A stretch of 5,750 bases of DNA from contig CAMPKG010000220.1 of the NCBI GenBank assembly GCA_946887085.1, positions 1 to 5,750 on the forward strand, given 5' to 3'. Positions 1,714 through 5,750 of the stretch are shown here, piece by piece. Every line of letters starts with the position of its first letter. Within the stretch, counting starts at the first letter, position 1. This stretch comes from an uncultured Sphingobacteriales bacterium (GTDB lineage: Bacteria; Bacteroidota; Bacteroidia; Chitinophagales; Chitinophagaceae). Made by a program: the position numbers and the translations under genes. The notes beneath the pieces were generated by a model. It was not told the DNA's origin. It searched no databases and saw only the letters and a list, made by a program, of their open reading frames with translations.

Positions 1714-1742
1714 CTAACATTTTGCCAAAGGGGAACGTCAAT
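1714..1742 (+). promoter_or_regulatory. Candidate ECF-type promoter of the sigma factor operon
   Basis: CTAACATTTTG (1714-1724) is followed after 11 bases by CGTCAAT (1736-1742). The AAC and CGTC blocks lie 17 nt apart, the usual -35/-10 geometry of promoters read by ECF sigma factors, many of which use an AAC core at -35 and a CGT-type -10. The same two blocks with the same spacing occur before the secreted-protein gene (3915-3943), with 17 of 18 positions identical. The CGTC lies 57 nt upstream of the sigma TTG codon, so transcription would start near 1748-1751 and leave a leader of about 45 nt. Autoregulation of this kind is common for ECF operons. The assignment to this particular sigma factor is inference. 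Confidence 0.72.
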
Positions 1743-1792
1743 ATTGATACCCAAACGTGATCTTGACGATGAATTGAGCCCGGAACAGATGA

Positions 1793-2374
1793 TTGGACGA
1801 AAAAGCTAACATATTGGTTCACCCCGGCCATGCGCAATCCGGTGATCCGGCCCTCAAAGGACTGGTAAGGGATGCTATTGCCGGAAAAAGAACGGCGCAA
1901 AAGGAGATCTACGACCGCTATTCACCGCTTATTTACGGCATCATCAGGCGATACACCAGGGACGAAGCAGCTGCATGCGAGATACTGAATGATACTTTTT
2001 TCAAGATACTTACCCGGTTGGAGAGCTTCGCTTTCAAAGGGTCGATAGAAGGATGGATGCGTACCATCGCAGTGCATACTATCACCGATCACGTTCGCAA
2101 AAACCTGCGGTACAATGAAGCTGTAAACCGCGATATCGAGCAGCCGGATGCCCGTGTGGACCAGGATATCACTGCGCATATTGCCTATAAGGACCTGCTG
2201 GGTATAATCCATGAGCTACCCGACACGCATAGAATGGTCTTCAACCTTTTTGTGTTTGAAGATCTGTCGCATAAAGATATTTCGGCACTGCTCGGAATAT
2301 CCGAGAATAACAGCCGCTGGCATCTGAACGATGCCCGCAGGCGATTGAAGGAAAAAATAACATCGGCGATGTAA
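1793..2374 (+). CDS. RNA polymerase ECF sigma factor (sigma-70 family)
   Basis: 193 residues, normal for an ECF sigma factor, which directs RNA polymerase to a small set of promoters, usually in answer to an envelope or extracellular signal. Region 2 spans about residues 35-105: QKEIYDRYSPLIYGIIRRYT, the ILNDTFFKILTRL core-binding helix (64-76), and the -10 recognition helix around GWMRTIAVHTITDHVRK (87-103). A short linker follows, then region 4 (about 138-190): LPDTHRMVFNLFVFEDLSHK, then the helix-turn-helix ISALLGISENNSRWHLNDAR (163-182). No extra C-terminal domain is present. The start is a TTG directly after an in-frame TGA; the next possible start is TTG 1814, and the first in-frame ATG is inside region 2. 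The nearby ATG 1789 is out of frame by one base across an A5 run (1800-1804), so a slipped or miscalled A is possible. The stop overlaps the next gene as TAATG, implying a co-translated pair. Confidence 0.93.
   Translation: MDEKANILVHPGHAQSGDPALKGLVRDAIAGKRTAQKEIYDRYSPLIYGIIRRYTRDEAAACEILNDTFFKILTRLESFAFKGSIEGWMRTIAVHTITDHVRKNLRYNEAVNRDIEQPDARVDQDITAHIAYKDLLGIIHELPDTHRMVFNLFVFEDLSHKDISALLGISENNSRWHLNDARRRLKEKITSAM
1806..1819 (+). repeat. Third copy of the promoter -35 block, inside the sigma gene start
   Basis: CTAACATATTGGTT here is identical over 14 bases to 3915-3928, which is the -35 block of the downstream candidate promoter. No CGTCAAT follows at the required distance (positions 1828-1834 read CCATGCG), so it is not a complete promoter. 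It covers codons 5-9 of the sigma gene. It could be a chance match, a decoy binding site, or a trace of local duplication. Confidence 0.5.
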
Positions 2375-3903
2375 TGGAAGACAGGAACGATCATATCGAC
2401 CAATACTTCAGGCAGGCACTGGATGGCGTGACGGAAACGCCACCCGCAGCTGTATGGGCTGCGCTTGAAAAAAGGCTTGACGGAAAGAAACGCCGCGGCG
2501 GATTTTTCTGGTTATGGCTTTTGTTTGGCTTCCTTGCGGCAACAGGCTTAGGTATTTTCTATGCGCAAAAGCCAGCCCAAAATAAGATCAATCTAACCGC
2601 CGGCGCTTCAAACAGTACGCTATCAAACACCACTATCCCGCAAATCCCGCGGCATTCGGCAGATATACCTGACCAAAAAACCGAAGTAAGCGGCTCCACA
2701 GTAAAGAATTCAACTGCAGTAACTAAAACAAAGCACAACAAACCTGATCTCCATCAACGTGTACCCAGGTCAATTTCATCAGTTGAGAACCCGGTCATAA
2801 GCAGCAGTCAACCGGTTTCACCAACGCAGCAAGCAACCGCAGACACCTTAAGCACACCGGTCATCGCAAACACGACGCCAATGCAACCTGATACGGCGGT
2901 GGAACTGTTGCCATTTGCAGGTGAACCCTACCCTGAGGAATCCCGTAAATATGACCTTGAAACTTACCAGACACTCGAGCCAAAAGCCGGGAAAACCATC
3001 ATTTTATCGAAACCTGCAGATACTATTGCCATAGAAAAACCTGTTGCAGATCTCCCACATGCTGAAACAGATTCTGAAAAAGCTATCGTTCGGCCCGAGG
3101 TAGAATTAGAAGACAAACCGACTCGGGTAGAAAAACTAAAATTCACAGCCGGAATTAAAACAGGTTATGAGTTTGGCACGAAACGACTTCGTGCAAACAG
3201 CATCGTCATTTCACCATACCTGCAATACTTTTTCAATAGCAAATGGGGCATCATGACACAGCCGGCGCTCAAATATTCATTTACGCCAGATGCAGTTCTG
3301 CTGCAGGAAACATACAATAAACCCATTGACAGTTCGATCACCGGATTGTTACCTATCATCCCAAGCGGCAATAATCCCGGTACATCCACCGGCAACAAAA
3401 TCGTGTATCAAAAAACTTACGACTCTATATCCATAAAACATTTTCTTACCAACACACGCCACTGGAATGTAGACCTTCCCTTAATGCTGGTGTATCGCAT
3501 GAACAAAAAACTCGAGCTGTACGGAGGTTTGAACATGCAAATCACGAGAGTAGCCCGTATCGGCAAACAGCAACAAACCGTTGCACGCATTACGAAAACG
3601 GACACCTTAGAGATGGACCCGAACGCAAGCGAATCTGATACACCGGCGCTGTCATCAGTGATACCCAACACAGGCATTGCGTACAGCAATTACCAGGGAT
3701 CAGCGTTTAACAATCCGCTCATCAATCCATTCAAACTAGGCGTAACATTTGGTGCAAGCTATCTACTCAATAAGCGATTGAGATTCGATATACTGTACAG
3801 ACAAACTCTGTCGAGGCTCAACTATATTCCCAACCCGCAAGTCCGTGAGATCTATAGCCAACCCTATTTAAGATTAACTTTGGGTTACAAACTCACAAAA
3901 TAG
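2374..3903 (+). CDS. Probable envelope-spanning anti-sigma/sensor protein with C-terminal outer-membrane beta-barrel
   Basis: 509 residues in four parts. Residues 1-41 are a cytoplasmic segment (DQYFRQALDGVTETPPAAVW, then ALEKRL), the P-x-x-x-W pattern seen at the N-terminus of many Bacteroidota proteins encoded beside ECF sigma genes. Basic KKRR (38-41) precedes one hydrophobic helix at about 44-64, predicting N-in orientation. Residues 65-250 are a Thr/Ser/Pro/Lys-rich linker of low complexity. From about 255 to the end, alternating beta-strands (KFTAGIKTGYEFG, ISPYLQYFF, HWNVDLPLMLVYRM, LELYGGLNMQI, RFDILYRQTL, PYLRLTLGYKL) resemble the PorT-like outer-membrane beta-barrel family. Its start overlaps the sigma stop by one base, so the two are expected in fixed ratio, as for a sigma/anti-sigma pair. 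I infer that the N-terminus holds the sigma factor and the barrel senses something at the outer membrane. The alternative is a barrel protein whose helix is a cleaved signal sequence with a long n-region. No classical zinc-binding anti-sigma motif is present. Confidence 0.8.
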   Translation: MEDRNDHIDQYFRQALDGVTETPPAAVWAALEKRLDGKKRRGGFFWLWLLFGFLAATGLGIFYAQKPAQNKINLTAGASNSTLSNTTIPQIPRHSADIPDQKTEVSGSTVKNSTAVTKTKHNKPDLHQRVPRSISSVENPVISSSQPVSPTQQATADTLSTPVIANTTPMQPDTAVELLPFAGEPYPEESRKYDLETYQTLEPKAGKTIILSKPADTIAIEKPVADLPHAETDSEKAIVRPEVELEDKPTRVEKLKFTAGIKTGYEFGTKRLRANSIVISPYLQYFFNSKWGIMTQPALKYSFTPDAVLLQETYNKPIDSSITGLLPIIPSGNNPGTSTGNKIVYQKTYDSISIKHFLTNTRHWNVDLPLMLVYRMNKKLELYGGLNMQITRVARIGKQQQTVARITKTDTLEMDPNASESDTPALSSVIPNTGIAYSNYQGSAFNNPLINPFKLGVTFGASYLLNKRLRFDILYRQTLSRLNYIPNPQVREIYSQPYLRLTLGYKLTK

Positions 3904-3914
3904 ATCGTAATGCT

Positions 3915-3943
3915 CTAACATATTGGTTATTCGTTTCGTCAAT
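3915..3943 (+). promoter_or_regulatory. Candidate ECF-type promoter of the secreted propeller gene
   Basis: CTAACATATTG (3915-3925), 11 bases, then CGTCAAT (3937-3943). This differs from the sigma operon promoter at one position of 18 and has identical spacing, while the 11-base spacer is unrelated, the pattern expected of selected -35 and -10 boxes. The CGTC lies 56 nt before the ATG at 3993, against 57 nt for the sigma gene. It starts 12 nt after the stop codon of the barrel gene. No terminator separates them, so read-through from the sigma operon could also reach this gene. Transcription would start near 3949-3952. Confidence 0.75.
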
Positions 3944-3951
3944 TATAGCAA

Positions 3952-3970
3952 GCAGCATCCGGATGCCTGC
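3952..3970 (+). promoter_or_regulatory. Palindrome at the 5' end of the secreted-protein transcript
   Basis: GCATCCGGATGC (3955-3966) is a perfect 12-bp palindrome, extended by GCA (3952-3954) against TGC (3968-3970) with one bulged C. If the promoter at 3915-3943 is right, this lies at or just after the transcription start and would form a hairpin at the very 5' end of the mRNA, or act as an operator for a dimeric regulator. It is followed by an A-run rather than a T-run, so it is not a terminator on the plus strand. Confidence 0.45.
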
Positions 3971-3992: not shown

Positions 3993-5750
3993 ATGAAAAC
4001 AATACTTACACTTCTATTAGCCTGCTACAGCATGGCGGCTTTCGGTAGCAAGGCTACATTCAAAAAACTGGCTGAGGTCAACAAATGCTGGACCGAACAA
4101 AAAGACGTTCCACAGTTACCCGCCTGCAATTCATTGAGTGAACGCGAATGGATCAAACTTCACTTATCGTTGGCAGAGCGGACTTTGCGCTCTCGCGACA
4201 TGAGTCATCTGACGGCCGCACAAAAACAAAAAAGATTGCAAAGCCTTAATGACCTGCACAGGTATTGGCTGGAGGGAAATTTTCCAGTGAATGATGAGTA
4301 CGCTTTCCGCACGCCGATATTCATCGACAAATACAATAACTTCTGTGCAGTAGGTTACCTGGTAAAAGCCAGCGGCCATGAAAAAATTTCACGCATGATC
4401 GCGGCCAATACCAATCTCGCTTACGTGCGCCAGATGAACTATCCCGAGCTGAACGCCTGGGCGAATGACTATGGGTTTACTACGGATGAACTTGCATGGA
4501 TACAACCGGGATACCCTCCTGTCTGTAATGCCAAACCTGTTGGCGGAGGAACCAACGGCGAAATAATGGATATGTTTGCCGACGAAGCTGAAGGCAAGCT
4601 CTACATCGGCGGGAATTTCACCAAGGTAGATGGCAACATCAACGCGGGCAATATTGCCTGCGTAACCATGCAAGGCGGCACCTATAAATGGCATAGTATG
4701 AGTACTGGTGTAAATGGCCCTGTGTATGCAATCGAAAAATTTGACAACAAGATCTTTATCGCAGGTGAATTCACACTTGCCGGCTCAACCGCAGTGCACA
4801 ACATTGCATATTGGGATGGCAGCGCCTGGCAACCGTTCGGCTGTACCTATGGAAGGATCAACGACCTGCTGGTGTATAAAGGCGAGTTGTATGCCGCCGG
4901 AGATTTTGATGTATGCGCAGCATTAGCCGAAGTGAATTTTGCGCGCTGGAATGGCAGCAACTGGCAACAAATGCCGGGCCTTACAGGACACGTAAACACT
5001 ATGGCAATATGGAATGAAAAAATTGTGTTGGGCGGATCCTTCGAACACACCAGTGCGGCGAAGAACGTCATCACCTGGGATCCCAACAACTGGTTTACGC
5101 CGTTCAACAATAACATTGTAAACGAGGTAAAAGACCTGGAGATATTTAAAGGTGACCTGTATGCAGCAACAAAATTCAGTGGCAGCGCAGATAGTGCATT
5201 GTTGAAGAAACTGACCGGACAAAGCTGGACGACCGAACCATCACTTTCTTTCGCCGACATCGATAACACCATCACTTACAACACGCTTTGCGCGCAGGCG
5301 GACACGCTGGTAGTGGGTGGCAATTTCAATAGCGGCGGGATGATCCTTGTTGGCTCGGGCATTTCCAATTGCTTTAACCTGAACGGTGGAGACTGGTTCC
5401 TTGTTGATGACGAGATCAATAAACTGGTTGTATTCCAGGGCAAATTATTCGCCGGCGGGAAATTCACGAAAGACACAGATAACCCTACTATCCCACTCAA
5501 CGGCATCGGCTTCAAGGAATACAAGTTCACGAACAACATTCCCGAAATACCCCGGAATGGTGGAGTGAACCTATACCCAAATCCCGTAAAAAACTCCCTG
5601 AATGTTAACAACACGGGCGAGGAAATCAACTACAATATCTACGATCTGCAGGGCCGCAAAGCATTGTCGGGAACTACGCAGAAGGAAATAGATGTGCAAA
5701 CATTGCAGCCGGGTCACTACCTGATAAGGGTAGAAGATAAAAAAGCCGGC
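3993..5750 (+). CDS. T9SS-exported beta-propeller protein with unnamed N-terminal domain, 3' end outside the window
   Basis: 586 codons with no stop before the window edge. Residues 1-18 form a Sec signal peptide (MKTILTLLLACYSMAAFG, A-F-G before the likely cut). Residues about 20-176 are a helical domain with the conserved-looking core TPIFIDKYNNFCAVGYLV (107-124) and ending ELAWIQPGYPP. I recall similar regions at the N-terminus of other Bacteroidota secreted proteins but cannot name the family. Residues about 190-512 carry seven repeats marked by 'L-Y-x-G-G-x-F' strands at 203, 254, 299, 344, 389, 439 and 485, several with a following 'W-[DN]-G-x-x-W' turn, which is the pattern of a seven-bladed propeller. 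NLYPNPVKNSLNV (526-538) opens a type A Por sorting tail that continues to the edge, with YLIRVEDKK near its end; about 10 residues should remain. The tail sends the protein through the type IX system to the surface or medium. No catalytic motif is visible. ATG 3993 follows an A/T-rich leader, usual in Bacteroidota. Confidence 0.9.
   Translation, partial: MKTILTLLLACYSMAAFGSKATFKKLAEVNKCWTEQKDVPQLPACNSLSEREWIKLHLSLAERTLRSRDMSHLTAAQKQKRLQSLNDLHRYWLEGNFPVNDEYAFRTPIFIDKYNNFCAVGYLVKASGHEKISRMIAANTNLAYVRQMNYPELNAWANDYGFTTDELAWIQPGYPPVCNAKPVGGGTNGEIMDMFADEAEGKLYIGGNFTKVDGNINAGNIACVTMQGGTYKWHSMSTGVNGPVYAIEKFDNKIFIAGEFTLAGSTAVHNIAYWDGSAWQPFGCTYGRINDLLVYKGELYAAGDFDVCAALAEVNFARWNGSNWQQMPGLTGHVNTMAIWNEKIVLGGSFEHTSAAKNVITWDPNNWFTPFNNNIVNEVKDLEIFKGDLYAATKFSGSADSALLKKLTGQSWTTEPSLSFADIDNTITYNTLCAQADTLVVGGNFNSGGMILVGSGISNCFNLNGGDWFLVDDEINKLVVFQGKLFAGGKFTKDTDNPTIPLNGIGFKEYKFTNNIPEIPRNGGVNLYPNPVKNSLNVNNTGEEINYNIYDLQGRKALSGTTQKEIDVQTLQPGHYLIRVEDKKAG

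Follow-up and report, generated by a model that had tools for sequence, protein, structure and literature searches.

A stretch of 5,750 nucleotides (nt) from an uncultured Sphingobacteriales bacterium (contig CAMPKG010000220.1; hereafter the window) carries the gene of an extracytoplasmic function (ECF) sigma factor, a second gene directly behind it (gene 2) and a gene for a secreted protein (gene 3). A two-part sequence occurs upstream of both the sigma gene and gene 3. The question raised by this locus is whether these two occurrences, sites 1 and 2, are promoters and, if so, which sigma factor reads them. An earlier inspection of the window's letters, which we call the sequence-only reading, proposed that the adjacent sigma factor reads both. 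Judging from comparative sequence analysis, we consider it very probable that this sigma factor (1793-2374) uses sites 1 and 2 as its promoters, in an autoregulated circuit whose target is a cargo protein of the type IX secretion system (T9SS). Conservation in orthologous loci, spacing, placement, co-occurrence and co-variation with the sigma factor all point in this direction.

The sigma protein contains only sigma-70 regions 2 and 4 (Pfam Sigma70_r2 at residues 39-104 and Sigma70_r4_2 at 135-185, both above cut-off), and its 193 amino acids (aa) also score above the cut-off of the sigma70-ECF model; it is an ECF (group 4) sigma factor. Because its stop codon and the ATG of gene 2 overlap by one base, the two genes probably form one operon. 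The product of gene 3 matches the T9SS type A C-terminal sorting domain, TIGR04183, at 38.5 bits (cut-off 23), as well as PF18962 and PF12768, with Rax2/DUF5122 beta-propeller matches. Its ATG at 3993 opens the signal-peptide-like sequence MKTILTLLLACYS, as judged by eye. With a sorting domain above the cut-off and a signal peptide, this product qualifies as T9SS type A cargo.

Two matching sites in the window

The pattern CTAACATWTTG-N11-CGTCAAT matches the plus strand exactly at sites 1 and 2 (Table 1), and no third match is found in the window even when up to 3 mismatches are allowed. Dinucleotide shuffles have a mean of 0.01 matches, and none of 200 reached two. The boxes are identical at 17 of 18 positions, while the 11-nt spacers agree at 2 of 11. 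The sequence-only reading had described two matching sites with identical spacing and unrelated spacers, lying in the gaps that precede the plus-strand genes, and all of this is borne out. It had also placed both sites 56-57 nt before a start codon. This holds when the distance is counted from the -10 box, since the first base of CGTC lies 57 nt from the sigma start TTG at 1793 and 56 nt from the ATG at 3993; it does not hold for a nearer in-frame ATG of gene 3, at 3963, which is 26 nt from CGTC. ECF promoters have an AAC-type -35 box and a CGT-type -10 box about 16-17 nt apart, and the distance from AAC to CGTC in the window is 17 nt.

The first box has an extra copy (CTAACATATTGGTT) at 1806-1819, which the sequence-only reading does not mention. 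It was considered as a promoter and rejected: it lies in the sigma reading frame and has no -10 box. Its codons give A-N-I-L at the sigma N-terminus; the N-I pair is found again in many orthologues, and the isoleucine codon used most often in these genes is ATA (245 ATA, 169 ATT, 80 ATC). We take this copy to be coding sequence.

Conservation upstream of orthologous sigma genes

Genome-wide work was done in the genomes of relatives, where L and G numbers denote loci and genomes. An alignment of 36 sigma homologues led to genomic loci: of at least 581 stretches that encode a relative, we retained the best 80. The upstream stretch was inspected in the 37 loci of at least 44% identity, except for L001 and L016, whose upstream sequence is too short, which leaves 35. 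Of these 35 orthologous loci, 34 have a site of the form CTAAC[A/G]TT-N14-CG[T/C]C ahead of the sigma gene. On a score of ten positions (TAACAT plus CGTC), 33 loci reach 9-10, L021 reaches 8 and L032 reaches 7. The C preceding TAAC does not enter the score, and it is found in all 34 sites. The sequence-only reading had named non-conservation of the boxes upstream of orthologous genes as one outcome that would count against it; the result is the opposite.

When the 34 sites and the window are aligned, CTAAC is invariant in all 35 rows, although the rows were selected by their boxes and the invariance is therefore partly a selection effect. It is followed by mostly A/G, T, T, T, a free stretch, CG[T/C]C (CGTT in L026) and an A/T-rich triplet. 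The 17-nt spacing occurs in every one of the 35 aligned sites, where spacings of 16-18 were permitted and ties were assigned to 17. A set from 147 genomes supplied 16 additional loci of at least 44% identity, 14 of which score above 11 on a matrix made from the 35 rows; the other 2 are degenerate.

On the ten-position score, no value above 8 occurs in any of the 43 loci with identity of at most 41%, and the site is absent in all 10 distant sigma genes that were examined (at most 42% identity, of 11 matches), all of which score below 7 on the matrix. In 7 of these 10 the best stretch starts with CCAAC, 6 of them with AGTC or GGTC.

Sites around the sigma operon in relatives

In 38 loci the same matrix gives 65 matches, consisting of the 35 training sites and 30 others, versus 3 when the loci are read backwards. 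As in the window, a site lies 9-19 nt past the stop codon of the gene behind the sigma gene in 5 of 37 loci (L001, L002 with a weak TGTC site, L007, L026 and L032). Sites farther downstream of the sigma operon are present in L002, L010, L013, L014, L024, L029, L030 and L049, and 13 loci have opposite-strand sites upstream of the sigma gene, facing a divergent gene.

We followed 28 of the 30 non-training matches downstream, omitting L009 at 1577 and L035 at 3773, which are both weak. Three extend past the contig, one (L007) has no long open reading frame (ORF) behind it, and 24 have an ORF that mostly starts like a secreted protein, as judged by eye. The T9SS type A cut-off is reached by 9 of 10 scanned companion ORFs, the tenth, in L026, lying below it (20.8 versus 23); the divergent gene of L025 is also below the cut-off (21.2). 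In L001, from Flavipsychrobacter sp., the nearest named relative, the gene behind the site has an N-terminal sequence in common with gene 3 of the window.

A family of divergent targets, with about 290-300 residues, recurs in L006, L011, L020, L023, L027 and L035. Its members carry a T9SS sorting domain together with a choice-of-anchor J domain, which in L011 is below cut-off.

Placement, spacing and targets across genomes

In 11 relative genomes, 44 sites were found with a loose pattern. For the placement of these sites, 34 of the 44 have a locus, and the controls are the 30 sites with a locus among 61 reversed-pattern sites in 9 genomes. By crude ORF calls, 29 of the 34 sites lie outside ORFs of at least 100 aa, versus 3 of the 30 controls, the remaining 27 inspected controls lying in ORFs. 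An ORF start is found 10-75 nt downstream of 21 of the 34 sites versus none of the 30 reversed-pattern sites. The spacing is similarly constrained: when it was left free over 13 values in the 11 genomes, 14 of 16 strict matches had the predicted spacing and 2 were one base shorter, and with the five sigma-gene sites excluded the predicted spacing is found in 9 of 11.

To see what follows the sites, 43 of the 44 were fetched, from 9 relative genomes; the G002 site sits at a contig end. Nine of the 43 precede a sigma orthologue, and 18 non-sigma sites have an ORF within 75 nt. In 15 of these 18 near ORFs the T9SS type A sorting domain is above its curated cut-off, which has a chance probability of about 2e-14 at an assumed base rate of 8%. 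The scan for the boxes that the sequence-only reading had suggested, run in genomes of relatives, thus yields a small regulon of the sigma gene and T9SS cargo genes. Because there are from 76 to at least 150 T9SS domain matches per genome, the predicted regulon would involve only a few of the many cargo genes.

A sigma cascade was considered because another ECF gene has sites 190 nt (G010) and 220 nt (G009) ahead of it. Since a similar stretch recurs upstream of that gene in 11 of 14 genomes (see below), these sites are more likely the gene's own motif and were not counted as targets. At two further sites, L007:10409-10530 (plus strand) and L180 near 6351 (minus strand), no long ORF follows, but a hairpin and a T run lie about 65-130 nt downstream. 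These are candidates for sigma-driven small RNAs.

Co-occurrence and co-variation with the sigma factor

From a larger group we drew 147 genomes belonging to a single family; a sigma match is present in 22 of them at a threshold of 1e-40 and in 18 at 1e-45. The four genomes between these thresholds hold a distant kind. With the 1e-45 line, which was chosen after the table had been viewed, the strict site is present in 14 of the 18 genomes that have an orthologue versus 12 of the 129 that lack one (Fisher p 1.6e-9). With the 1e-40 line the figures are 14 of 22 versus 12 of 125 (p 1e-7), and when four already known genomes are removed (G001, G007, G009 and G011) they are 11 of 14 versus 12 of 129 (p 4e-8). 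The 18 genomes with an orthologue hold 44 strict sites versus 13 control sites. Among the 12 genomes that have the site and no orthologue, G101 holds 81 sites and the other 11 hold 16; control sites number 78 in the 128 genomes that exclude G101.

The 2.3-Mb genome of G101 is a case of its own. Near-identical spacers occur among the 27 matches listed for it, and the 8 sites that were inspected (e.g., L219:1557-1689 and 6742-6874) lie in a dispersed repeat about 100-130 bp long that is not followed by any consistent gene. No sigma orthologue is found in G101 at 1e-40.

The sites also vary together within a locus. The third base of the -10 box is the same in 22 of 25 pairs of an autoregulatory site and a companion site (16 T-T, 6 C-C; Fisher p 0.001, uncorrected for relatedness), the discordant companions being L011 at 4758, L013 at 1080 and L014 at 6454. 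Adding two weak discordant pairs (L009 and L035 at 3773) and a concordant one (L026) gives agreement in 23 of 28 (p 0.005, again uncorrected for relatedness). Moreover, the -10 variant goes together with residues of the sigma factor. The 10 CGCC sigma genes group in a single clade, and residues 74-75 are R/K-D in every member. In the 26 CGTC rows, residue 74 is T in 23 and residue 75 is K/R in 22, and both CGTT rows have E-K. For this comparison the -10 variant of L001 and L032 was read at a companion or weak site, and L016 was labelled by a truncated -10 box. Four alignment columns (60, 74, 75 and 171) fully separate CGCC from CGTC. By alignment to solved sigma factors, residues 74-75 immediately precede the loop which in other ECF sigma factors contacts the -10 strand.

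Evidence against, and alternative readers of the sites

Several observations weigh against the conclusion that this sigma factor reads the sites. First, 30 mononucleotide shuffles per locus averaged about 7 on the ten-position score, with maxima of 8-10, so that a single box score is weak evidence; given this weakness, the weight rests on the recurrence of the site and on the unscored C before TAAC. L203 (G044) and L211 (G080) have nothing better than degenerate sites, and L032 has a weak one. Second, in the 11 relative genomes the loose pattern was found 44 times versus 64 times for its reversed control, which means that raw over-representation was not found. Because of this, we rely on placement, spacing and the strict pattern. 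Third, 3 of the 18 near targets are not T9SS proteins (L151, L158 and L185), and the L158 site is inside another ORF. Fourth, 16 of the 43 sites neither precede a sigma gene nor have a near target. Seven of these lie inside ORFs by crude calling (L152, L162, L171, L172, L177, L179 and L184); two of them have a further ORF beyond the site, which in L152 encodes a T9SS type B protein (254 nt away) and in L171 a pseudouridine synthase (105 nt away). Two precede another ECF sigma gene (L174 and L183), two have no ORF (L159 and L180), and five lie 133-282 nt upstream of an ORF; these five include type A proteins (L167 and L170), one ORF just below the T9SS type A cut-off (21.2 versus 23) and two very long ORFs (L168 and L169). 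Fifth, the CGCC clade has a single origin, and the co-variation therefore rests on about two evolutionary changes. Finally, near-identical motifs (CCAAC followed by CGTC, AGTC or GGTC) stand upstream of other ECF sigma genes in related genomes, and a match to the boxes alone is therefore no proof of which sigma factor reads them.

This last point leads to the alternative that survives best, namely that the sites are ECF promoters that another ECF sigma factor of the same cell reads as well, or instead. In 11 of 14 relatives (L226-L239) a different ECF sigma gene has a motif of the form CCAAC/CTAAC followed by CGTC/AGTC at 180-234 nt before its start, and this motif reads CTAAC in G009, G010 and G100. 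The CCAAC stretches of the distant sigma genes described above could also foster such cross-talk, as could the two sigma paralogues present in some genomes (G008 and G108). However, the strict site is rare in genomes without an orthologue (12 of 129), and the -10 variant mostly tracks the adjacent sigma factor. We therefore regard cross-talk as unlikely.

Much less probable still is that the boxes are unrelated to the sigma factor and form the site of some other regulator or elements of a housekeeping promoter. Two matching boxes do not, by themselves, separate a promoter from an operator, and the 81 strict sites of G101, in a repeat where inspected and in a genome without an orthologue at 1e-40, also speak for this reading. 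Against another regulator stand the fixed spacing around a free spacer, the orientation, the placement 10-75 nt before ORFs, the co-occurrence with the sigma gene and the co-variation. The Bacteroidota housekeeping consensus is TTTG and TAnnTTTG, which the boxes do not resemble. Lastly, the near identity of the window's boxes could arise if site 2 were fortuitous or had recently been copied from the first region, but spacers agreeing at 2 of 11 positions, the 0 of 200 shuffles with both sites and the recurrence in relatives of similar arrangements with different spacers make this exceedingly improbable.

Gene 2 as a probable anti-sigma factor

Gene 2, which lies between the sigma and cargo genes and was passed over in the sequence-only reading, probably encodes an anti-sigma factor. 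Its product consists of a short N-terminus, a hydrophobic segment at about residues 43-64, a low-complexity tether and a weakly matching C-terminal outer-membrane barrel domain. On the basis of this anatomy we call it Dma-like, which is short of calling it a proven Dma protein.

By eye, the gene after the sigma gene starts alike in all 37 loci of at least 44% identity, the likeness being weakest in L026 and L032, and the family shares the N-terminal stretch HIDxxFRxxLGxYTExPPxxVWxxLExRLD. In searches against Pfam the gene 2 N-terminus matched no named anti-sigma domain, and a profile of the family gave no meaningful match to solved structures. The single transmembrane helix is assigned by hydropathy only (mean 1.97 across 19 residues from residue 44); a comparable hydrophobic segment is present in most relatives, and is weak in L026 and L032. 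Similarly, the tether is assigned by composition only (63% P/S/T/N/Q/E/K/D across residues 65-250). Homologues in the 37 relatives range from 369 to 1024 aa, with linkers of very different lengths. Their ends usually resemble an outer-membrane barrel strand by eye, with a short protein in L034 and proteins cut by the contig end in L015 and L022. The window's protein matches OMP_b-brl_2 at E 0.0011 and 19.5 bits, below the Pfam cut-off of 27, and 10 of 33 aligned members have a barrel-domain match at E of at most 0.01, the best being 6.4e-07.

Proposed mechanism

The mechanism that we propose is itself a known one. At rest, the sigma factor would be held by the gene 2 protein, acting as a Dma-type anti-sigma factor: its N-terminus would lie in the cytosol, one helix would cross the inner membrane, and a long tether would run through the periplasm to a barrel in the outer membrane. 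An envelope or surface signal would release the sigma factor. Once free, it would transcribe its own operon from site 1, which amounts to positive feedback together with synthesis of its restraint, while site 2 would drive the gene of the surface protein that the T9SS exports. The site as found in relatives would likewise serve a few cargo genes of this secretion system, some adjoining the sigma operon.

A wider reading joins these elements, and we hold it only tentatively, since we consider it rather doubtful: that one branch of the Dma/Das systems is devoted to the surface cargo of type IX secretion, with sigma paralogues insulated by a two-residue code for the -10 box. The outer-membrane end of the anti-sigma factor would monitor T9SS cargo at the surface or its export, and the sigma factor would replace the cargo, making a direct feedback loop from outer membrane to nucleoid. 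The residues before the sigma2 loop (T-K/R, R/K-D or E-K) would read the third and fourth -10 bases (CGTC, CGCC or CGTT, respectively).

Comparison with known systems

In Escherichia coli, sigma E and RseA form an autoregulated operon with a downstream membrane anti-sigma factor, and the promoters have an AAC-type -35 box and a CGTC-type -10 box. The plan of the operon and the types of boxes are shared with the window; the difference is that the window's restraint has a probable outer-membrane domain.

Dma proteins consist of an N-terminal domain, a transmembrane helix, a disordered tether and a C-terminal barrel, according to the parts of PMC13088901 that we used. The Dma/Das systems described there and the window are alike in having an ECF sigma gene beside a protein of this four-part anatomy, which for the window's protein is predicted. 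When dma2 is lost in Bacteroides, das2 and adjacent genes go up (PMC13088901), an experimental result that backs this logic in a different member of the Bacteroidota. However, the targets differ. For Dma/Das, the sections used report neighbouring genes, nigD1 (for Dma1), polysaccharide loci and effects on vesicles, whereas the predicted targets here are T9SS cargo genes. Neither "motif" nor "T9SS" occurs in the text of PMC13088901, and the sections covered contain no statement that we could find of what Dma proteins sense. In Porphyromonas gingivalis, the T9SS cargo PorA feeds a signal into the pathway of SigP with PorX/PorY, as given in the part of PMC7712824 consulted. SigP, like the window's predicted system, is an autoregulated ECF sigma factor linked to type IX secretion. 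It differs, going by the same part of that paper, in acting on genes of the T9SS machinery under a two-component system, while the window's sigma factor would act on cargo genes and be controlled by the adjacent, probably barrel-bearing anti-sigma factor.

In the portions of the literature on ECF21, ECF classification, T9SS and Dma1/Das1 that we consulted, we found no recognition sequence for this subfamily, no T9SS cargo regulon and no -10 co-variation. Titles and the beginnings of abstracts name no promoter for a Dma-linked sigma factor, though papers classifying ECF groups may list a predicted motif, and a query with the letters of the boxes returned no relevant title among the matches listed. 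For one Dma-type sigma/anti-sigma system, the analysis supplies a recognition sequence that can be tested, and it links such a system with T9SS cargo. Reporter assays and suppressor screens become feasible with a small, predictable regulon beside the sigma operon, and the co-varying -10 variants are a natural set for studying how ECF sigma factors distinguish promoters.

Features of the window and start codons

Table 1. Coordinates of genes and predicted promoter sites in the window.
Feature	Position	Strand	Remarks
prfC (peptide chain release factor 3)	3-1523	minus	
Predicted promoter site 1 (autoregulatory): -35 box CTAACATTTTG, N11, -10 box CGTCAAT	1714-1742	+	exact match; upstream of sigma gene, kept in orthologues
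ECF sigma factor, 193 aa, TTG start, sigma-70 regions 2 and 4	1793-2374	+	Pfam and sigma70-ECF above cut-off
Probable Dma-like anti-sigma factor, 509 aa	2374-3903	+	anatomy as for Dma proteins in PMC13088901
Predicted promoter site 2: CTAACATATTG, N11, CGTCAAT	3915-3943	+	exact match; 12 nt past anti-sigma stop, upstream of T9SS cargo gene
Target gene 3, secreted protein	3993-5750 (ORF opens at 3963, extends beyond window)	+	TIGR04183, PF18962, PF12768

The distance from the site to the chosen sigma start is 97-134 nt in the CGCC clade (L013, L014, L017, L018, L022, L024, L029, L030, L036 and L049) and 36-88 nt in 23 CGTC rows. The CGCC sites before secreted proteins in G008 have long leaders too (154-282 nt).

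The chosen sigma start is TTG in 34 of 35 loci and GTG in L005 (L026, L031 and L032 being omitted). Other in-frame starts are available in many loci, and TTG is the sole one listed in L003, L007, L010, L013 and L014. The retained rare start codon may keep levels of the sigma factor low.

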